Of a DNA stretch of 64,000 bases, positions 1,899 to 10,982 are shown one piece after another; position 1 is the stretch's first letter; each line of letters starts with the position of its first letter. The notes beneath the pieces were generated by a model. The model made no database searches and was not told the origin of the DNA. It worked only from the letters and a program-made list of their open reading frames with translations. Source of the stretch: Curtobacterium sp. GC_Cur_3 (GTDB lineage: Bacteria; Actinomycetota; Actinomycetes; Actinomycetales; Microbacteriaceae); the NCBI RefSeq assembly GCF_026544205.1, contig NZ_JALNUI010000023.1:1-64000 (forward strand), read 5' to 3'. Made by a program: the position numbers and the translations under genes.

Positions 1899-3395
1899 CT
1901 ACGCGCGATCGGGCACGCCGGACCACGCGTCCGCGGCCGCGGCGGCAGGACCAGCAGTACCCGCAGCACCCGCCGCACCAGCACCCGCCCGCGCCGGCAG
2001 GTGCACCGTGAAGACCGTGTCGCCCGGGCGGCTCTCGACCCCGACCCTGCCCCCGTGCGCCTGCACGACCGCGTCGACGATGGCCAGCCCGAGGCCCGTC
2101 GACCCCGCCGTGCGGGACCGCGAGCTGTCGGCGCGGGCGAACCGCTCGAACAGCTTCGGCAGGAACGCCGGGTCGATCCCCTGCCCGGTGTCCCGCACGG
2201 TCAGGTCGACGCCGTCCGGGACGGTCTCGATGCCCACGGTGATGCGGGTGCCGTCAGGCGTGTGGGTCCTGGCGTTCGTGACGAGGTTGACGATGACCTG
2301 GTGCAGCCGGGCGGCGTCGCCGAGCACGACGACCGGGGTGGGTGGGACCTCGACCTCGATGACGTGCTCGGGCGATGCGGCGTGGGCGTCGTTGACGGCG
2401 TCGAGCACCAGCCCGGTCAGGTCGACGTCGTCGAGCTGGACCTCGCGGCCCTCGTCGAGCCGTGCCAGGAGCAGCAGGTCCTCGACCATGGAGGTCATCC
2501 GCAGCGACTCCGACTCGATGCGGCTCATCGCGTACACGACGTCCGGCGGCAGGTCACCGCCCATGCGGCGGGTGAGCTCGGCGTACCCGCGGACCGATGC
2601 CAGCGGCGTGCGGAGCTCGTGCGAGGCGTCGGCGACGAACTGCCGGACCTTCTGCTCGGAGCGTTCCCGGGCCTGCATCGCGTTCCCGATGTGGCCGAGC
2701 ATCCGGTTGAAGGCGGTGCCCACGCGACCGACCTCGGTGCGGGGGTCGGTGTCCGGCACGCGGATGCCGTCGAGGGCGTCACTGCGGTCCAGCGGCATGC
2801 CGGCGACGGTCGTGGCGGTCTCGGCGACGCGCTCGAGCGGTCGGAGGGATCGTCGGACGGCGAGCGCCGCGGCGGCGGACGCGACGACGAGCGCGAGCAG
2901 CATCACGACGAGCACGACGCCGAAGAGCTTCCAGACGCTCTCGTACACGGGCACCATGGGCAGGCCGACGACGAGCACGGCGGGGCCGACGGGCGCTGCG
3001 GTCACCCGGTAGCGACCGAGGTCGTCGCCGAGGTCCACGGTCCGGGGCTGCCCGTCGACGCGCACGCCGCCGAGCGGCTCGACGGCAGAGGCAGCGAGGC
3101 TGTCGAGGTGGCCGTCGTCCTCGAGCACGCTGCCGATGACCGCGTTGCCGTTGAGGAAGTAGGCGGTGAGGGTGCCGGCGGCCTGCCCGGACGGACGACC
3201 GATGTCGAGCCCTGGCCCGCCGGACCCCTGCCCCTCGATCGACTTCTGGGCGCGGCTCGTGGCGTACTGCAGCTGTTGGTCGATCGCCGAGCGCTGGATC
3301 GAGAACAACGCGACGATGCTGCCCGCGCCGATCACCGCGCTGACGGCGACGACGAGGGCGACGATGCTCAGGACGAGCCGGCGGCGCAGGGTCAC
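1899..3395 (-). CDS. Two-component sensor histidine kinase
   Basis: About 498 residues. Order of parts: first membrane helix near residues 5-30, an extracytoplasmic sensor of about 120 residues, second helix (VVLVVMLLALVVASAAAALAV), HAMP linker, HisKA box with FVADASHELRTPLASVRGYAEL split around the phosphorylated His, and an ATPase domain with VTNARTH, DTGQGIDP and STGLGLAIV. The GTG at 3395 lies 4 nt past the response-regulator stop and suits translational coupling; a GTG at 3431 would add 12 residues. Neither has a clear ribosome site. It is expected to phosphorylate the upstream-encoded regulator; the signal is unknown. The architecture matches the MprB/TcrY group. Confidence 0.93.
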   Translation of the reverse strand: MTLRRRLVLSIVALVVAVSAVIGAGSIVALFSIQRSAIDQQLQYATSRAQKSIEGQGSGGPGLDIGRPSGQAAGTLTAYFLNGNAVIGSVLEDDGHLDSLAASAVEPLGGVRVDGQPRTVDLGDDLGRYRVTAAPVGPAVLVVGLPMVPVYESVWKLFGVVLVVMLLALVVASAAAALAVRRSLRPLERVAETATTVAGMPLDRSDALDGIRVPDTDPRTEVGRVGTAFNRMLGHIGNAMQARERSEQKVRQFVADASHELRTPLASVRGYAELTRRMGGDLPPDVVYAMSRIESESLRMTSMVEDLLLLARLDEGREVQLDDVDLTGLVLDAVNDAHAASPEHVIEVEVPPTPVVVLGDAARLHQVIVNLVTNARTHTPDGTRITVGIETVPDGVDLTVRDTGQGIDPAFLPKLFERFARADSSRSRTAGSTGLGLAIVDAVVQAHGGRVGVESRPGDTVFTVHLPARAGAGAAGAAGTAGPAAAAADAWSGVPDRA

Positions 3396-3399
3396 GGGA

Positions 3400-4140
3400 T
3401 CAGACGACGGGCTTGATGACGTACCCGACACCGCGCACGGTGTGGATCATCGGCTGCTCGCCGGCGTCGATCTTCTTGCGGAGGTAGGAGATGTAGATCT
3501 CGACGACGCTGGACTTGCCGCCGAAGTCGTACGACCACACGCGGTCGAGGATCTGCGCCTTCGACAGCACACGACGCGGGTTGCGCATCAGGAAGCGCAG
3601 GAGCTCGAACTCGGTGGCGGTGAGCTCGATGGGCCGGCCGGCGCGGGACACCTCGTACGACTCCTCGTCGAGCACCAGGTCGCCGACGACGATGCGGGAG
3701 TCGCCGGCCTCGGAGATCGAGATCTGCGAGCGGCGGATGAGCCCGCGGAGGCGCGCGACCACCTCCTCGAGGGAGAACGGCTTCGTCACGTAGTCGTCGC
3801 CGCCTGCGGTGAGGCCGGTGACGCGGTCCTCGACGCTGTCCTTCGCGGTGAGGAACAGGACCGGGGTGTCGTCGTTGTTCTGGCGGAGCCGACTGAGGAC
3901 CTGCAGTCCGTCGAGGTCGGGCATCATCACGTCGAGCACCATGGCGTCCGGCTTGAACTCCCGCGCCTTCGCCAGGGCGTCCTGTCCGCCGTTCGCGCTC
4001 GTGACGTCCCAGCCCTCGTACCGCAGCGCCATGGACAGCAGGTCGGTGAGGCTGGCTTCGTCGTCGACGACGAGGATGCGCAACGGCGAACCGTCGGCAC
4101 GCGTGAGGCGTGGGGCTGCGGAGGGCTGGGAGATGGTCAC
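3400..4140 (-). CDS. OmpR-family response regulator
   Basis: 246 residues. The receiver domain has the acidic pair DD at 26-27, phosphoacceptor D70 in MVLDVMMPDLDG, and LTAKD and TKPFS further on. The C-terminal winged helix carries ELTATEFELLRFLMRNP and VVEIYISYLRKKI. It is first gene of a two-gene unit with the kinase. The GTG start is 7 nt after a GATACT -10 element, so the mRNA is probably leaderless. It resembles PhoP/TcrX-type regulators; targets are unknown. Confidence 0.95.
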   Translation of the reverse strand: MTISQPSAAPRLTRADGSPLRILVVDDEASLTDLLSMALRYEGWDVTSANGGQDALAKAREFKPDAMVLDVMMPDLDGLQVLSRLRQNNDDTPVLFLTAKDSVEDRVTGLTAGGDDYVTKPFSLEEVVARLRGLIRRSQISISEAGDSRIVVGDLVLDEESYEVSRAGRPIELTATEFELLRFLMRNPRRVLSKAQILDRVWSYDFGGKSSVVEIYISYLRKKIDAGEQPMIHTVRGVGYVIKPVV

Positions 4141-4147
4141 GTCTTCG

Positions 4148-4153
4148 AGTATC
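4148..4153 (-). promoter_or_regulatory. -10 element of leaderless promoter for the response regulator
   Basis: GATACT on the minus strand, 7 nt before the GTG at 4140. The same hexamer and spacing recur at 61014. Confidence 0.6.
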
Positions 4154-4232
4154 GAGAAGATCCTATGAGGCGTCTGTGGAGCAGCACGCAGCGGTCTGTG
4201 GATGACCTGTCACTGACCATGTCCGCGATACG

Positions 4233-4238
4233 TAGGTT
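4233..4238 (+). promoter_or_regulatory. -10 element of leaderless promoter for the acyl-CoA dehydrogenase trio
   Basis: TAGGTT ends 6 nt before the ATG at 4245. There is no ribosome-binding site in the gap. Confidence 0.6.
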
Positions 4239-4244
4239 GGGCCC

Positions 4245-5312
4245 ATGATCCGTTCTGCCGCCTGGCCAGCCGACGCAGCCGCCGTCGACGTCGCCACGCT
4301 GACGGCCACCGCGCGCACGGCCGCCGGACGTCCGGCCACCGCGCTGACGGACACCGCCGGGAGGCCCGGCTCGGCCCCGGCAGACCGACTCGCGGTCGCA
4401 CGGGCGGTCGCCGCCACCACGCCACCGCTCACCGCGGGCACGGCCGCCCGCTCCTTCGTCACGCTCGCAGCGATCGCCGCCGTGGACGTCGCCCTGGCCC
4501 GGACGGTCGAGCCGCACCTGGACGCGCTCTCGATCCTCGCGCAGGCGGACGCCGAGGTCCCGGCCGGGTCGACCTGGGGCGTCTTCGCCGCGGAGGGTCC
4601 GGGGCTCCGGCTCGAGGCCTCCGGCGACGGTGTCGGCGGCGTCGTGCTCGACGGCACGAAGCCGTGGTGCTCGCTCGCGTCGGAGCTCTCGCACGCCCTC
4701 GTGACGGCGCACCGCGGAGACGACCGGCAACTGTTCGCCGTCGACCTGCGGCAGGACCGCGTCACCACGCACGACGACGCCTGGGTCGCGCGCGGCATGC
4801 CGGACGTGCCGAGCGGCCCGGTGGACTTCGACGGGGTCGTGGCCGTCCCGGTCGGCGACCCCGGTTGGTACCTGACCCGTCCCGGGTTCGCGTGGGGCGG
4901 CATCGGCGTCGCCGCGTGCTGGTGGGGCGGGGCCGTCGGGCTCGCCCGCGTGCTCCGCGACCACGCCGCCGCGCGTCCGGACGCCGAACTGCTCCGCGTC
5001 GCGCTCGGTGCCGTGGTCGCCGACCTGGCCGACGCCGAGGACGCCCTCGCCGACGCGGCCGCGCGCATCGACGCCGACGAAGACGTCGACTGGCCCCTCG
5101 TCGCCCAGACCGTCCGCTCGCGGGTCCGCCGGGCGGTGGACGCCGTCCGCACCCGGGTGGTCTCCACGATCGGCCCGGGCCCGCTGACGTCCGACCCAGC
5201 CGTCGCCGCGCGGGTCGCCGACCTCGAGCTCTACGTGCTGCAGGACCACGGCGACCGGGACCTCGCCCGCATCGGCCGGATGGTCCTCCAGAACGGTGGT
5301 GTCGCGTGGTGA
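4245..5312 (+). CDS. Acyl-CoA dehydrogenase-like flavoprotein (divergent)
   Basis: 355 residues, slightly shorter than typical acyl-CoA dehydrogenases (about 380). The middle region GDGVGGVVLDGTKPWCS resembles the beta-domain segment G-x-K-x-x-x-S that contacts FAD. The C-terminal helical bundle is present but I could not place a catalytic Glu with confidence, so enzyme activity is uncertain. It is the first gene of a tightly coupled trio: its stop overlaps the next start (GTGA). Context with a deacetylase-methyltransferase and a glycosyltransferase suggests tailoring of a small molecule or glycolipid rather than fatty-acid breakdown. Confidence 0.75.
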   Translation: MIRSAAWPADAAAVDVATLTATARTAAGRPATALTDTAGRPGSAPADRLAVARAVAATTPPLTAGTAARSFVTLAAIAAVDVALARTVEPHLDALSILAQADAEVPAGSTWGVFAAEGPGLRLEASGDGVGGVVLDGTKPWCSLASELSHALVTAHRGDDRQLFAVDLRQDRVTTHDDAWVARGMPDVPSGPVDFDGVVAVPVGDPGWYLTRPGFAWGGIGVAACWWGGAVGLARVLRDHAAARPDAELLRVALGAVVADLADAEDALADAAARIDADEDVDWPLVAQTVRSRVRRAVDAVRTRVVSTIGPGPLTSDPAVAARVADLELYVLQDHGDRDLARIGRMVLQNGGVAW

Positions 5313-6658
5313 GCTTCGACCACCGGGAGCCGGGCACCGATCCGGAGGCCTGGACGACGTTCCTCGACACGCTCTCCCCCGACGCGGTCGACCTCGACGG
5401 GTACCAGGCGGTCGTCGTCGTCGCGCCGCACCCGGACGACGAGACCCTCGGGGCGGGTGGCCTCATCGCCGCGGCGGCCGACGCGGACATCCCCGTCCAC
5501 GTCGTGCTCGTCACGCTCGGCGAGGGATCGCACCCCGACTCCCCCACGACCACCCCCGACGAGCTCGCGGCGGTCCGTGCCACCGAGTTCCGGGACGCCC
5601 TCGAACTGCTCCACCCGGAGGTGACGGCGGGGTCGCTCGGCGTGCCGGACGTCGGCCTCCGCGAGCAGCCGGACACGTTGCGCGACGCGCTGGTCGCCCG
5701 GCTCGACGCCACGCCCGGCCGCTCGCTCCTCGTCGCGCCCTGGCGTGGGGACGGTCACCGCGACCACCGTGTCGCTGGCGAGGTCGCCGAGGCCCTCAGC
5801 GCCGAACGGCCCGACGTCGACCTGCTGTCCTACCCGATCTGGGCCTGGCACTGGGACGACGCTGCCGAGCCCGTCGCGCCGTGGCCCACGGCCCATGCAC
5901 TCGCGCTGACCGACGACGTCCTCGACCGGAAGCGCGCCGCGCTCGCGGCCTACCGGTCGCAGGTGCTGCCGCTCTCCCCCGCGCCCGGCGACGAGCCGAT
6001 CGTCGACGACCGGCACGCGGCCCACCACCTCCGCCGCACCGAGTGGTTCTTCGGTGGGCAGCGCTCGCGTTCCCGCGAGTCCTTCGACGCGCACTACGCC
6101 AGGAAGCCCGAGGGGTGGGACTTCGACGGCTCCTGGTACGAGCGTCGAAAGCGTGCCGTGACCCTGGCGGCGCTGCCCCGTGAGCGCTACCGATCGGCGC
6201 TCGAGATCGGCTGCGCGACCGGTGTGCTGACCGCCGCCCTGTCCGACCGTGCCGACGACGTCCTCGGCACCGACATCGCCGCCGCACCGCTCGAACGCGC
6301 CCGCTCCCGCGCGCCGCACGCCCGGTTCCTGCAGGCCGCGCTGCCGGACGACTGGCCAGAGGGCACCTGGGACCTCGTCGTGATGTCCGAGGTCGGCTAC
6401 TACCTCTCCCCCGACGACCTCGACCGGACGATCGACCACGTGATCGCGTCGCTCGCCGACGACGGCGTGCTCGTCGCCTGCCACTGGCGCCACCCCGACG
6501 ACGAGGCGGTCTCCAGCGGGGACGTGGTCGACGCCCGGCTCACCGAGCGCTGGCCCCGGCCCGCGATCGTCCGGCACGTCGAGGACGACTTCGTGCTGAG
6601 CGTCCTGCCCGGCGCCGGTGTGGTCTCCGTCGCGCGGGGCGAAGGACTCGTCCGGTGA
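5309..6658 (+). CDS. Bifunctional PIG-L deacetylase / NodS-like SAM methyltransferase
   Basis: 449 residues; GTG at 5309 overlaps the previous stop as GTGA (a second GTG lies at 5306). The N-terminal half is a PIG-L/LmbE zinc deacetylase: APHPDDE at about 39-45 and GHRDHR at about 149-154 supply the metal ligands and catalytic Asp. The C-terminal half is a class I methyltransferase with LEIGCATG at about 296-303 and the acidic strand GTDIAAAP. The methyltransferase resembles NodS, which N-methylates a glucosamine after its deacetylation. The fusion therefore suggests sequential N-deacetylation and N-methylation of one aminosugar substrate; this is inference. Both motif sets are complete. Confidence 0.88.
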   Translation: MSFDHREPGTDPEAWTTFLDTLSPDAVDLDGYQAVVVVAPHPDDETLGAGGLIAAAADADIPVHVVLVTLGEGSHPDSPTTTPDELAAVRATEFRDALELLHPEVTAGSLGVPDVGLREQPDTLRDALVARLDATPGRSLLVAPWRGDGHRDHRVAGEVAEALSAERPDVDLLSYPIWAWHWDDAAEPVAPWPTAHALALTDDVLDRKRAALAAYRSQVLPLSPAPGDEPIVDDRHAAHHLRRTEWFFGGQRSRSRESFDAHYARKPEGWDFDGSWYERRKRAVTLAALPRERYRSALEIGCATGVLTAALSDRADDVLGTDIAAAPLERARSRAPHARFLQAALPDDWPEGTWDLVVMSEVGYYLSPDDLDRTIDHVIASLADDGVLVACHWRHPDDEAVSSGDVVDARLTERWPRPAIVRHVEDDFVLSVLPGAGVVSVARGEGLVR

Positions 6659-7461
6659 CGGACGCCGGAACGGCAGCAGGAACGGGAACGACGAAGGCAA
6701 CGGCAACGGCAACGGCAACGGACACGGACACGGACACGGACACGACGACCGTGACCACGACGCCCGAGGTCGTGCACCGCATCGACGTCGTCGTGCCCGC
6801 CCACGACGAGGAGGACCGGATCGGCGCCAGCCTCGACGCCCTCGACGCCGCCGTGGTCCGCCTCGCGCTGGAACGCCCGGCGATCCGGGTCGGCATCACC
6901 CTCGTGCTCGACGGCTGTACCGACGACTCCGCGGCGATCGTCCGCGACCACGGGACCGACCACATCGAGACCGCGCACGTCGGGGTCGGACGCGCCCGCT
7001 CACTCGGGGTAGCACACGCCGTCCGCGCCGCCGGCACTCCCGACCCGGTGCGGCAGTGGCTCGCCCACACCGACGCGGACTCGCGGGTCGACGAGTGGTG
7101 GCTCGTCCAGCAGGCCGACGCGCTCCTCGCGGGGTGGCACGTGCTGATCGGTGCCGTGGTGCCCGATCCGCGCGACCTCGACCCGGACGTGCTCGAACGA
7201 TGGACGATCGCGCACCCGCCGGGCGCCGCACTCGGTCACGTGCACGGCGCGAACCTCGGGGTGCTCGCCGCGGCGTACACGGCCCTCGGCGGGTTCGACC
7301 CCGTCCCCGAGCACGAGGACGTCCGCCTCGTCGAGCGCGCGCACGCGCTGGGCCTCCGGGTCGAGGCGACGACCGACCTCCCCGTCGTCACGAGCGGTCG
7401 CTTCGCGGGGCGCACCCCGGGCGGCTACGCGGAGCACCTCCGCCAGACCTACGCTCCTTAG
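6655..7461 (+). CDS. Family 2 glycosyltransferase with hexanucleotide-repeat N-terminus
   Basis: 268 residues from a GTG at 6655 that overlaps the preceding stop (GTGA). The GT-A fold is shown by RIDVVVPAHDEEDRIG, LVLDGCTDD and the metal-binding HTDADSR, then GANLGV and FDPVPEHEDVRL. There are no membrane helices, so it is probably soluble or peripheral. The first 32 residues are mostly Thr, Ala and Asp encoded by eight hexamers; an in-frame GTG at 6751 just past them is an alternative start. It most likely transfers a sugar to or from the product of the two upstream enzymes. Confidence 0.85.
   Translation: MTDAGTAAGTGTTKATATATATDTDTDTDTTTVTTTPEVVHRIDVVVPAHDEEDRIGASLDALDAAVVRLALERPAIRVGITLVLDGCTDDSAAIVRDHGTDHIETAHVGVGRARSLGVAHAVRAAGTPDPVRQWLAHTDADSRVDEWWLVQQADALLAGWHVLIGAVVPDPRDLDPDVLERWTIAHPPGAALGHVHGANLGVLAAAYTALGGFDPVPEHEDVRLVERAHALGLRVEATTDLPVVTSGRFAGRTPGGYAEHLRQTYAP
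6696..6743 (+). repeat. Hexanucleotide tandem repeat in a glycosyltransferase gene
   Basis: Four GGCAAC units (6696-6719) are followed by four GGACAC units (6720-6743). In frame they encode (Ala-Thr)4 then (Asp-Thr)4. Unit gain or loss would change length by two residues without shifting frame. Confidence 0.9.
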
Positions 7462-7582
7462 GCGGTTCATCGGAAGGGCATGGGGCAGCCACTGGACGGC
7501 TGCCTAGCGTCTCCTCGGTCGGCCCCGCCGCGCATCCGGTGCGCGGACGGTGACTGTCTGCCGGCCCCCACCGAGGAGAACC

Positions 7583-9109
7583 ATGTTCCTGACCTACCTC
7601 AGGCGCGAACTCACGAACCGCAGGAAGCAGACGGTCATCATCGCGATCGGCATGGCGCTCGCCATCGCCCTCGTCGTGATCGTCTCCTCGATCTCCAGCG
7701 GCGTGAAGACCGCGCAGTCGAGCGTCCTGCAGTCCGTGTACGGCGTCGGCACGGACATCACCGTGACCAAGACCGAGACCCCGTCGTCGACGAGCGGCGG
7801 ACGTCCGTCCTTCGACTTCGGCGACCAGGGCTCGTCGGGCTCCTCCGGCAGCACCGACCTGTCCCAGTCCCGTCTCGCCGTCACCCGCGGCACCTCCACC
7901 CTGTCCGCGGCGAACCTCTCGGCCGTCGCGGCGACCGACGGCGTCAAGGCCGCCACCGGTGTCCTGACCCTCGAGAACAGCACGTTCTCCGGCTCGGTGA
8001 AGCAGGGCAGCGACAGCAGCAGCAGCAGCAGCGACAGTGCCGCCACCCGGCAGGCCCCGAGCGGCGACGCCGGGACGGGCGGCGGCGGCTTCGGCGGCGG
8101 CTCGTTCAGCGTCGACTCCTTCACCGTGACCGGCATCCCGGTGTCCGGCGACACCGTCGGACCGCTCACGAGCACCGAGGTCACGAAGGGCCGCGCCTTC
8201 CGCGCCTCGGACACCGGCAAGGACGTCGTCGTGCTCGACGCCGCCTACGCGAAGAGCGAGTCGAAGGCCGTCGGGGACACGCTCGAGATCGGTGGCACGA
8301 AGTTCACCGTCATCGGGATCGTCGCCTCGACCGGGTCGGCGAGCACCACCGGCTCGAACACCTACGTGCCCCTCAACACGGCCCAGGCGCTCGCCGACCT
8401 CGACGGCAAGGTGACGTCCGTGTACGTCTCGGCGACGTCGTCGTCGGAGGTCGCCGCGGTGAAGACCGCCCTGCAGGCGAAGCTCTCGGGTGCCACCGTC
8501 TCCACGGAGGCCGACCTCGCCTCGAGCGTGTCCGGGTCCCTCGCCACGGCCTCGAGCCTCGTCGCGAACCTCGGCCGGTGGCTGTCGATCCTCGTCCTCG
8601 CCGCGGCGTTCCTCATCGCGATCCTCTTCACGATCTCCGGCGTCACCCGGCGCACGCGGGAGTTCGGCACCCTGAAGGCCATCGGCTGGTCGAACGGCCG
8701 CATCACCCGGCAGGTCGCCGGCGAGTCCCTCGTGCAGGGCCTCATCGGCGGTGTGATCGGCGCCGCGGCCGGGCTCATCGGCATCCTCGTCGTCAACGTC
8801 ATCGCCCCGACGGTCTCGGCGAGCGCCGCGACCACGACCACCCGCGGCCCCGGATCCGGCGGGATGCCCGGTGCGGCCGCGACGGCCGCTGCCGGGAGCG
8901 GCACGACCGGCGGGGCTCCCGCCGGCGGGTTCGGCGGCGGCGCGAGCGCCGCGTCCACCACCGACGTCGTCCTGCACGCCCCCGTCACCGTCGAGGTGTT
9001 CCTCCTCGCGATCGGCCTGGCGGTCCTCGGCGGACTGGTGGCCGGCGCGCTCGGCGGCTGGCGAGCCTCCCGACTGCGCCCCGCCGAGGCGCTGCGGAGC
9101 GTCGCCTGA
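7583..9109 (+). CDS. MacB/FtsX-type ABC transporter permease
   Basis: 508 residues; ATG at 7583 follows GAGGAG. An N-terminal membrane helix (QTVIIAIGMALAIALVVIVSS) is followed by a large extracytoplasmic MacB-like domain of about 290 residues, then three helices near residues 330-360, 390-420 and 470-495. The cytoplasmic loop RRTREFGTLKAIGW is the FtsX-family signature. A Ser run (from an AGC repeat near 8014-8034) and a Gly-rich segment interrupt the outer domain, and a second Gly/Ala/Thr-rich stretch lies before the last helix. It pairs with the ATPase encoded next, overlapping by one base (TGATG). Such transporters export peptides, antibiotics or lipoproteins; the substrate is unknown. 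Confidence 0.92.
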   Translation: MFLTYLRRELTNRRKQTVIIAIGMALAIALVVIVSSISSGVKTAQSSVLQSVYGVGTDITVTKTETPSSTSGGRPSFDFGDQGSSGSSGSTDLSQSRLAVTRGTSTLSAANLSAVAATDGVKAATGVLTLENSTFSGSVKQGSDSSSSSSDSAATRQAPSGDAGTGGGGFGGGSFSVDSFTVTGIPVSGDTVGPLTSTEVTKGRAFRASDTGKDVVVLDAAYAKSESKAVGDTLEIGGTKFTVIGIVASTGSASTTGSNTYVPLNTAQALADLDGKVTSVYVSATSSSEVAAVKTALQAKLSGATVSTEADLASSVSGSLATASSLVANLGRWLSILVLAAAFLIAILFTISGVTRRTREFGTLKAIGWSNGRITRQVAGESLVQGLIGGVIGAAAGLIGILVVNVIAPTVSASAATTTTRGPGSGGMPGAAATAAAGSGTTGGAPAGGFGGGASAASTTDVVLHAPVTVEVFLLAIGLAVLGGLVAGALGGWRASRLRPAEALRSVA

Positions 9110-9162
9110 TGCGCGCGACGTCCCCGACCACCGAACCGACCGACCCGACCCGAGGAGCCACC

Positions 9163-9906
9163 GTGACCACCACCGCCCCTGCAGCCGACACGGACGACCG
9201 GAGCGCGGCCTCCCGGCCCGTCTACCGCCTGACCGACGTGAGCAAGACGTACCAGCAGGGGAAACGGACCGTCTCGGCCCTGACGAACGTCGACCTGGTG
9301 ATCCCCGCGGGCCAGCTCGTGGCGATCCAGGGGCCGACCGGCGGCGGGAAGTCGACGCTGCTCCAGATGCTCGGCGCGCTCGACCGACCGAGCGCGGGAT
9401 CGGTGGAGCTCGCCGGTCGTGACGTGGCGACGCTCGGGGACCGGGCGCTGACCGACCTGCGGGCCACCGAGATCGGCTTCGTCTTCCAGAGCTTCAACCT
9501 GATCCCGACGCTCACCGCGCTCGAGAACGTCGAGACGGCGTTCGCGGGATCGCTTGCGAAGCAGTCCCGGCAGGAGGTGCGTCGCCGTGCGAGCGAGGCC
9601 CTGCAGGAGGTGGGCCTCGGCGAACGGCTGGACCACCTGCCCGCCGAGCTCTCGGGCGGGCAGCAGCAGCGCGTCGCGATCGCCCGGGCTCTCGTGAAGG
9701 ACCCGCGGGTGCTCCTGGCGGACGAGCCGACCGGCGCCCTCGACGAGGGCACCCGCGACGAGATCATGGCGATCATCGAGCGGCAGTGGCGCGAGCGCGG
9801 CCTGACCGTGGTGGTCGTCACGCACGACTCGTGGGTCGCGAAGCGCGCGGAGCGGCGGCTGCTCCTGCAGCAGGGGCAGGTGCGCGAGCTGACGTCGCGT
9901 CCCTGA
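9163..9906 (+). CDS. ABC transporter ATP-binding protein (MacB/LolD type)
   Basis: 247 residues. Walker A is GPTGGGKST, the Q-loop lies in FVFQSFNLIP, the signature is LSGGQQQRVAIARAL, Walker B is VLLADEPTGALD, and the H-loop His is in VVVTHD. I chose the GTG at 9163 because GAGGAG lies 6 nt upstream; an ATG at 9109 overlapping the permease stop would add 18 residues. It energises the adjacent permease. The gene ends before a long hairpin at 9928. Confidence 0.94.
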   Translation: MTTTAPAADTDDRSAASRPVYRLTDVSKTYQQGKRTVSALTNVDLVIPAGQLVAIQGPTGGGKSTLLQMLGALDRPSAGSVELAGRDVATLGDRALTDLRATEIGFVFQSFNLIPTLTALENVETAFAGSLAKQSRQEVRRRASEALQEVGLGERLDHLPAELSGGQQQRVAIARALVKDPRVLLADEPTGALDEGTRDEIMAIIERQWRERGLTVVVVTHDSWVAKRAERRLLLQQGQVRELTSRP

Positions 9907-9927
9907 CGCGCGGGCGGCGCGCGTCTC

Positions 9928-9978
9928 CGCCTGGAGGCCCGGTGCCGGTCTCGTGGACCGGCACCGGGCCTCCAGGCG
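9928..9978. repeat. Palindromic repeat, family A; likely bidirectional terminator
   Basis: Perfect 23-bp arms (9928-9950 and 9956-9978) around the loop TCGTG, with the family core GGAGGCCCGGTGCC. It lies between the convergent ABC ATPase and beta-propeller genes and has no U-run. Confidence 0.85.
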
Positions 9979-10043
9979 GTCGCGTCGTGTGCGGGGCGGT
10001 TGTCGTGTGCGGCGCGGTCGTCGTGTGCGGCGCGGCGCTGCGG

Positions 10044-10982
10044 TCAGCCGGCGACGGGGTAGTCGCAGTAGGCGAACCACGTCGAGTCCGGGGCCCACGG
10101 TGGCACGTTGACCGTCCCCTGCCCGCCGTCGAGTGCGACGAGGGTCTCTGGCAGGACCGCGATCCGGGCACCGCGGACCAGGCTCCCGGGCAGCAGCCGG
10201 AGCTCCACGCGGTGGTCGGCCGGATGACCCTGCACGCCGGGCTCGTAGGACAGGTACAGCAGGTGCGCGCCGTCCGGCGAGACGTGCGGGAACCAGTTCA
10301 CTCGGTCGTCGGCCGTGATCTGCACGGGGTCGCTCGCACCCGAGCGCAGGGACACCAGCTGCGCGGTCCCCGGGGTGAAGCGCTCCGAGTTGTAGACGAG
10401 CACGTCGTCGGCGAAGGAGCAGCCGTCCGTCGGGTGCTCGTCCCGTGTCACGAAGGTCGTCGCCCCGGAGGTCGGGTCGACGAGCGCGACGTCGGTCGTC
10501 CAGACGCCGTCCTCGGACAGGTCGCCGACGATGGCCGCGAGCGAGGACCCGTCCGGCGCGATGCCGTGCAGGTAGTACTTGCGGGTCACGGGCAGCGCCG
10601 CGGCGACGTCGGTGATCCGGTCGGTGGGACCGCCGTCGGGCAGCGGCACGCGGTACAGCTCGCCGTTCCGGGCGCTCACCACGACCGAGGTGCCGGACGG
10701 GTCGAGCACGTGGTCGTTGTTGATCTCGTCGACGCCGTCCATCGGCACGGGCACGAGCGCGGTCTCGTCGAGCACGGTGTCGTCCCCGGGCGCCGGCAGG
10801 GGCAGCAGCCACAGGTCGCCGTTGCCGTTCAGCACGAGGGTGCGGTCGTCGAGCACGTTCGGGGCCTCGACGAGCACCGTGTCGGACGCGAACACGAGCC
10901 GCGCGGTCCTCGTGGCGACGTCGTACACGTGCACGCGGCTGGTCTGTCCGGGCAGCAGCTGCCGCCCCCTGGTGAAGCTCAT
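10044..10982 (-). CDS. TolB-like beta-propeller protein
   Basis: 312 residues, ATG at 10982 after AGGAGG. It is made of repeated blades such as NVLDDRTLVLNGNGDLWLLP, HVLDPSGTSVVVSARNGELY and HVSPDGAHLLYLSYEP, typical of TolB/WD40-like PD40 propellers. There is no signal peptide, so it is probably cytoplasmic. It lies 115 bp downstream of the sugar transport operon on the same strand, across a family B palindrome. Related proteins sit with sugar operons and are sometimes oligogalacturonide-lyase-like, but no catalytic residues were identified here. Confidence 0.8.
   Translation of the reverse strand: MSFTRGRQLLPGQTSRVHVYDVATRTARLVFASDTVLVEAPNVLDDRTLVLNGNGDLWLLPLPAPGDDTVLDETALVPVPMDGVDEINNDHVLDPSGTSVVVSARNGELYRVPLPDGGPTDRITDVAAALPVTRKYYLHGIAPDGSSLAAIVGDLSEDGVWTTDVALVDPTSGATTFVTRDEHPTDGCSFADDVLVYNSERFTPGTAQLVSLRSGASDPVQITADDRVNWFPHVSPDGAHLLYLSYEPGVQGHPADHRVELRLLPGSLVRGARIAVLPETLVALDGGQGTVNVPPWAPDSTWFAYCDYPVAG

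Follow-up and report, generated by a model that had tools for sequence, protein, structure and literature searches.

We analyzed a window of 64,000 nucleotides from Curtobacterium sp. GC_Cur_3 (contig NZ_JALNUI010000023.1, positions 1 to 64,000), in which positions 4245-7461 hold three genes encoding an acyl-CoA-dehydrogenase-fold protein (P0001), a fusion of a PIG-L deacetylase domain with a NodS-like methyltransferase domain (P0002), and a short family 2 glycosyltransferase (GT2; P0003). The association of these genes is real and goes beyond chance co-occurrence, and the cassette that they form probably makes an N-methylated aminosugar compound. The explanation that we rate best, with nearly as much for it as against it, is that the cassette, which is self-contained and either wholly present or wholly absent, produces a soluble small molecule that contains an aminosugar and serves stress survival. 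The main new result is that the cassette is linked to stress genes in Pseudomonadota; for Curtobacterium, such a link is unproven. A preliminary description of this DNA, made from its letters alone, had proposed an aminosugar-tailoring system, a plausible reading that is now better supported than by the sequence of the window alone.

The three open reading frames (ORFs) lie on the plus strand, and both of their junctions are GTGA overlaps, as had been described; the second gene has an alternative start at 5306. The features of the locus are as follows.

4233 to 4238, plus strand: TAGGTT, putative −10 box of a leaderless promoter, from a by-eye reading of aligned upstream regions.
4245 to 5312, plus strand: acyl-CoA-dehydrogenase-fold protein P0001, 355 amino acids, from an Acyl-CoA_dh_M match below the cut-off, an AlphaFold2 model, and a fold match.
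5309 to 6658, plus strand: P0002, 449 amino acids, with a PIG-L domain (residues about 36-162) and a NodS-like methyltransferase domain (about 254-437), from Pfam, profile, and structure searches.
6655 to 7461, plus strand: P0003, a short and probably soluble GT2, 268 amino acids, from Pfam, the absent QxxRW motif, and hydropathy.
6669 to 6744, plus strand: hexamer tandem repeats (AACGGC/ACGGAC) that encode a Thr/Ala/Asp-rich N-terminal extension of the GT2.
4202 to 7498, no strand assigned: approximate extent of the present/absent module, from flanks that are adjacent in cassette-less Curtobacterium.

The PIG-L domain (PF02585) of P0002 scored 85.7 bits, well above the Pfam cut-off of 28.2. 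The motifs HPDDE and HRDH are both present, and the metal and base residues H41, D43, D44, D148, H150, D152, and H153 are invariant in all 31 aligned fusions, which we selected from the named loci introduced below; the motifs are intact, as the preliminary description had noted. Its best structural match was diacetylchitobiose deacetylase (3wl4; Z 21.5, 204 aligned, root-mean-square deviation [rmsd] 2.6), with other deacetylases, including BshB, within about 1 Z. In NCBIfam, the top match was BshB2 with 50.4 bits (cut-off 195.25), and MshB gave 25.7 bits (cut-off 224.35). The cassette domain therefore has the PIG-L fold and catalytic motifs in common with BshB2, MshB, and diacetylchitobiose deacetylase, but it lies far below the BshB2 and MshB equivalog cut-offs and is fused or coupled to a methyltransferase.

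The nearest characterized relative of that methyltransferase is NodS. P0002 matched the NodS family (PF05401) with 36.5 bits (Pfam cut-off 24), and NodS was the sole NCBIfam family that matched all 20 methyltransferases scanned (E up to 1e-5), as well as the best one for the window protein. Since the window protein reached only 48.4 bits on the NodS equivalog NF041650 (cut-off 300), the enzyme is a relative of NodS and not NodS itself. The positions of the ExGCxxG motif are retained in 29-31 of the 31 aligned fusions. The closest solved relative was 4ISC of Pseudomonas syringae (E = 2.3e-42), a structure titled 'putative methyltransferase', and in a profile search of the PDB NodS (6e-25) came second after it; by structure, NodS (3ofk) came first (Z 22.9, 181 aligned, rmsd 2.2), ahead of the shorter 4ISC (Z 21.5). 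A search of the open-licence PubMed Central literature for texts naming 4ISC found nothing. These results support the NodS-like assignment made earlier, NodS being an N-methyltransferase, and the structural check suggested for the fusion placed 3ofk first for one domain and 3wl4 first for the other.

P0001 gave 28.6 bits with Acyl-CoA_dh_M, under the Pfam cut-off of 33.3, and 28 of 32 members of its family match this domain at E up to 0.01. Its AlphaFold2 model has a mean predicted local distance difference test (pLDDT) score of 89.6, low before about residue 45, and places the protein in the acyl-CoA dehydrogenase fold via a match to isovaleryl-CoA dehydrogenase (8sgr_A; Z 33.0, 335 aligned, rmsd 2.6). 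By our own mapping, Glu is missing at positions 218 and 334 in all 32 members; position 218 is Gly throughout, and position 334 is His in 18, Ser in 6, Asp in 5 (including the window protein), and another residue in 3. We take these two positions to be the usual catalytic-base sites, on the basis of alignments and of the positions in known enzymes. The Foldseek matches include the flavin monooxygenases DszC, KijD3, and DnmZ, which have the same fold, and P0001 and DszC have a Lys-x-aromatic-Cys-Ser segment in common; P0001 differs from these three in its low identity (~20%) and its truncated N-terminal helices. Acyl-CoA dehydrogenases match P0001 about as strongly in sequence as the flavin monooxygenases do, and they lead the structural ranking. 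P0001 is probably a flavoprotein.

P0003 matched Glycos_transf_2 (PF00535) with 29.4 bits, above the cut-off of 23.3. None of 18 aligned GT2 sequences (one partial) carries the QxxRW motif, and the window GT2 has no membrane-like segment, with a maximum 19-residue hydropathy of 1.31. We therefore rejected the identification of this short enzyme as NodC. The preliminary description had seen in the operon the three chemistries of Nod-factor synthesis; this stands for the chemistry in outline (GT2, de-N-acetylation, N-methylation) and for the homology of the methyltransferase to NodS, but not for the other enzymes, because the GT2 is not NodC-like and PIG-L and NodB are different families. Nod-factor synthesis uses a carbohydrate esterase family 4 (CE4) deacetylase, NodB, and the membrane enzyme NodC, whereas the cassette has PIG-L, a short GT2, and a dehydrogenase-fold protein. 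The parallel covers the chemistry and a single homologous enzyme but does not reach to the pathway.

A second kind of deacetylase occurs beside the same methyltransferase family. On a plasmid of Rubrobacter indicoceani (locus L056, 5110-9761), the genes for the methyltransferase, the GT2, and the dehydrogenase-like protein have a NodB-type CE4 deacetylase beside them, and the 14.7 kilobases (kb) examined there contain no PIG-L; this variant also has an extra pyridine nucleotide-disulphide oxidoreductase. Among long open frames with NodS-like domains, all four have a CE4 deacetylase and three a GT2, and two plasmid records bear the product name "trifunctional glycosyltransferase/class I SAM-dependent methyltransferase/polysaccharide deacetylase". 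Such trifunctional proteins resemble the cassette in joining a NodS-like domain to a deacetylase, and in three of the four frames to a GT2, but they are single long proteins with a CE4 deacetylase, in one record with polysaccharide-type surroundings, and no acyl-CoA-dehydrogenase-like partner was found in 16-18 kb around four examples of this type. Among the plasmid matches listed (60 of 162 records, spread over the ranking), those that rank lower than the cassette type and have a specific name are for the most part trifunctional proteins and NodS. Long proteins with NodS-like and NodB-type domains, mostly with a GT2, occur at L190, L191, L192, L193, and the plasmid loci L247 and L248, in Pseudomonadota, a Sulfitobacter, and a cyanobacterium. 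The presence of two unrelated deacetylase families beside one methyltransferase family argues that the acceptor of the methyl group is a de-N-acetylated aminosugar, so that deacetylation followed by N-methylation is a plausible sequence of steps. In that case, the Nod-type pairing of aminosugar deacetylation with subsequent N-methylation would not be confined to nodulation, and deacetylases of two unrelated families would fill one role.

The preliminary description had supposed that the trio is conserved, and the gene neighborhoods bear this out. We scanned named genomes with the fusion alignment and used the best 80 of 440 candidates (the named loci), a selection weighted toward Micrococcales. 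In 76 of the 80, the four domains all fall within 6 kb; of the others, L091 and L127 run off contig ends, and two Caballeronia loci lack a GT2 match. The nearest named loci are from Curtobacterium and are 71-97% identical over the fusion; three Pseudomonas other than P. syringae also carry the cassette. PIG-L and the methyltransferase share one open frame at 70 of 89 loci and are separate at 19, so the trio is often a four-gene cassette elsewhere. Among plasmids, 55 records match the cassette or its parts at E up to 1e-15, and 8 of 10 plasmid loci are complete (the GT2 is missing in one Deinococcus and PIG-L in Rubrobacter). The cassette occurs, among others, in Actinomycetota, Pseudomonadota, Deinococcota, and Bacteroidota (Mucilaginibacter, where the fusion is a single open frame); one cyanobacterial plasmid has a methyltransferase match only. 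No title or abstract describing the cassette was found among the open-licence PubMed Central texts.

Within the genus Curtobacterium, the fusion is strongly matched (E < 1e-190) in 29 of 36 genomes. In all five cassette-less genomes examined (99-100% complete), the two flanks are adjacent, and their aligned parts end 66-117 bases apart; two further genomes with no strong match (65% and 76% complete) were left out of this comparison. Because the flanks lie side by side in these genomes, the three genes behave as a single presence/absence unit, with edges that shift by tens of bases from one genome to another. We also considered a larger actinobacterial operon. For this, we clustered neighbor families from the longest non-overlapping ORFs in the flanks of 90 loci, and since no family beyond the cassette occurs in more than six genera, this candidate was rejected.

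The cassette is also spread among Pseudomonadota. In an even draw of 249 genomes, the methyltransferase was matched in 31 at E up to 1e-25, of which 21 had E up to 1e-39. Some of the weaker matches are trifunctional proteins, and another weaker match (L194) belongs to a complete cassette. The dehydrogenase-like protein, which had been regarded as an unusual addition, accompanies the methyltransferase in 19 of 20 windows taken from 19 of those 21 genomes, and so is not peculiar to the genome studied here.

The idea of a role in stress was first drawn from the annotations of 21 plasmid regions. The neighbors of the cassette include OtsA and OtsB on its two sides (otsA-[cassette]-otsB) in two Comamonas; catalase with OtsAB in an Acinetobacter plasmid region, with treZ in Paracoccus, and with a maltosyltransferase in Cupriavidus; catalase in Sulfitobacter; a Mn-catalase and a universal stress protein in Roseivivax; Ku and LigD in Bradyrhizobium; otsB in Legionella lytica; Dps in one Deinococcus; CsbD in Pandoraea; and a ferritin-like protein and spore photoproduct lyase in Kitasatospora. 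In Paraburkholderia, a catalase-family protein lies near a methyltransferase-GT2 pair. Stress-type annotations were absent around the cassettes in the plasmid regions of Sphingobium, Roseomonas, and Deinococcus wulumuqiensis, and nothing clear of this type was seen in those of D. radiophilus and Rubrobacter.

We then compared cassette and control windows of Pseudomonadota with a set of 33 stress proteins, including products of trehalose, catalase, and DNA-repair genes. A match was found in 13 of 20 cassette windows versus 1 of 20 controls (one-sided Fisher P = 7e-5), where four cassette windows span less than 20 kb, one is largely masked, and two genomes have no control window; the 20 controls come from 17 genomes, and six of them are on draft contigs known from the catalase or OtsB search. 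With three doubtful windows dropped (one with the methyltransferase only and two lacking a control from their genome), the counts were 10/17 versus 1/20 (P = 5e-4). Linkage was further measured in 25 genomes, 21 from the draw (including its center) and four from the named loci, with expectations based on rounded genome sizes. A trehalose-phosphatase lies within 10 kb in 3 of the 25 (0.08 pairs expected, Poisson P = 7e-5), and a catalase within 25 kb in 5 (0.72 expected, P = 9e-4); 75 of 82 catalase matches were entered; the seven omitted were weak or partial, and no cassette lies within 25 kb of any of these. In the named loci, 15 of 80 have a stress match, two of which (L112 and L138) supplied reference proteins, and the Dps reference matches 8 of the 80.

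At some loci the neighbors belong to sugar metabolism. In Pseudomonas (L138), the cassette directly follows four glucan-enzyme genes that we read as treZ-malQ-treY-glgX, and an operon with these four genes makes trehalose in P. aeruginosa, according to the excerpted text of PMC8084333. At L166, a glycosyltransferase/sucrose-phosphatase gene on the strand of the methyltransferase, two genes upstream of it, suggests sucrose synthesis. The row at this locus (4250-10320) comprises the glycosyltransferase/sucrose-phosphatase gene, a possible glycosyltransferase, a GT2, the methyltransferase, and a dehydrogenase-like gene, and it has no PIG-L match. Judging from gene content, the Pseudomonadota neighborhood points to stress or compatible-solute physiology rather than to an envelope glycoconjugate.

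Several observations weigh against the reading as a stress metabolite. In the 20 Pseudomonadota windows, PIG-L was matched in 15, the GT2 in 13, and all four domains in only 12, with hidden Markov models (HMMs) trained on Actinomycetes and one window largely masked. Two of the gaps lie with the HMMs, which missed a GT2 present at L166 and a separate PIG-L protein (34.5 bits) on the opposite strand at the Cupriavidus locus L144; no replacement for PIG-L was seen in some neighboring ORFs of 4 of the 5 windows lacking a PIG-L match, and the frame adjoining the methyltransferase at L163 is an implausible gene. The linkage test is not fully independent, because the 33 reference proteins were taken from other cassette neighborhoods and the control windows were set by coordinate. 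The catalase signal was weaker within 10 kb (3/25 genomes, P = 0.003), and more distant catalase-like proteins alone gave 1/25 genomes at 25 kb (P = 0.18). In Actinomycetes, the class of the window, the same stress set matched 6 of 20 cassette windows versus 2 of 20 of their own controls (P = 0.12), which is not significant, and in the 64-kb window itself it gave only one phospholipase-D-like match. Finally, sugar-polymer genes occur at some loci: glf and glycosyltransferases in Deinococcus, and glycosyltransferases in Sphingobium.

These sugar-polymer genes bear on the strongest alternative, which was also the proposal of the preliminary description, namely that the cassette adds N-methylated aminosugars to a glycan or glycolipid of the cell envelope (lipopolysaccharide, exopolysaccharide, or wall polymer). 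Glycosyltransferases or glf near some cassettes would fit it, as would one plasmid in which NodS-like and CE4 relatives lie near polysaccharide and ATP-binding cassette (ABC) transporter genes. However, the GT2 is short and has neither QxxRW nor a membrane-like segment, and although the other two proteins peak at hydropathies of 1.71 and 1.77, slightly above the customary threshold of 1.6 for a membrane segment, these peaks fall inside confidently predicted globular domains. The recurrent Pseudomonadota neighbors that were tested are stress genes, in a comparison in which envelope genes were not counted likewise. We consider this alternative rather unlikely, and between an envelope glycan and a soluble metabolite for stress we favor the latter.

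A low-molecular-weight thiol-like redox buffer or precursor, made in the manner of bacillithiol or mycothiol by glycosyl transfer and PIG-L deacetylation with an added N-methylation, is improbable. BshB2 as the top NCBIfam match of the PIG-L domain and the catalase and Dps neighbors speak for it, but the scores fall under the BshB2 and MshB cut-offs, and the genes of the block include no cysteine ligase or acetyltransferase. N-methylation, moreover, is expected to hinder use of the amine in cysteine ligation. Slightly less probable still is that the Pseudomonadota signal reflects accessory islands that gather stress genes and the cassette alike, with a function unrelated to stress. The plasmid-borne copies and the non-significant Actinomycete test are in line with such islands, whereas the recurrence in several lineages of same-strand arrays with trehalose- or sucrose-type genes, and the single match in 20 control windows from the same genomes, argue against them. 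Least probable is detoxification or degradation of a xenobiotic or acyl compound with P0001 acting on an acyl-CoA, since its fold and the DszC, KijD3, and DnmZ matches are offset by the lack of Glu at either of the mapped catalytic-base positions and by a glycosyltransferase and a deacetylase that fit a catabolic route poorly.

For the soluble stress metabolite, the following scheme may be proposed. The GT2 would transfer an N-acetylated hexosamine, or a similar sugar, to a small acceptor; the PIG-L domain would then take off the acetyl group; the NodS-like domain would methylate the freed amine within the same polypeptide; and the acyl-CoA-dehydrogenase-fold protein would perform a redox step on the sugar or its amine. 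We infer what the substrate is, in which order the steps run, that methylation is on N and not on O, that a flavin takes part, and that the product is protective. Recurrence of the cassette in several phyla, its unit-like behavior in Curtobacterium, and its position near trehalose or catalase genes in many Proteobacteria point to a new metabolite. A wider and distinctly more speculative possibility is that an undescribed family of N-methylated aminosugar stress metabolites, perhaps built on or beside trehalose or sucrose, is produced by the four activities of the cassette and helps Actinomycetota, Pseudomonadota, Deinococcota, Bacteroidota, and possibly Cyanobacteriota to withstand drying, osmotic stress, or oxidative stress. 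In a Curtobacterium, drying is reported to induce an acyl-CoA dehydrogenase and glycosyltransferases (PMC12029717), but these proteins cannot be tied to the cassette because the excerpted text of that report gives no loci. In several Actinomycetes, a ferritin/Dps-like gene lies close upstream of the cassette (L086, 8393-8887; similarly L079, L094, L099, and L100).

The preliminary description had placed the operon under one leaderless promoter. By eye, a TAnnnT box lies 6-7 bases before the start codon in all 14 aligned Curtobacterium upstream regions, including that of the window (one further locus, in which the match starts late, was omitted). This spacing fits a leaderless transcript, and a leaderless start is plausible from the alignment; a sigma-70 consensus scan of 4100-7650 found no promoter, and no terminator was found in the same stretch. 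To the left of the cassette lie a divergent response regulator and a histidine kinase, and to the right a region with ABC-ATPase sequence (read by eye); the two-component system (1899-4140) and the ABC transporter region (7480-9906) directly adjoin each other in the genomes examined that lack the cassette. One contig (L103), labelled Stenotrophomonas maltophilia P13, carries an Actinomycete-type fused cassette that is 44% identical to the Curtobacterium one, owing to either contamination or transfer. Compared with the GT2 extension encoded by the repeats at 6669-6744, nine other Curtobacterium loci have a shorter or a different one.

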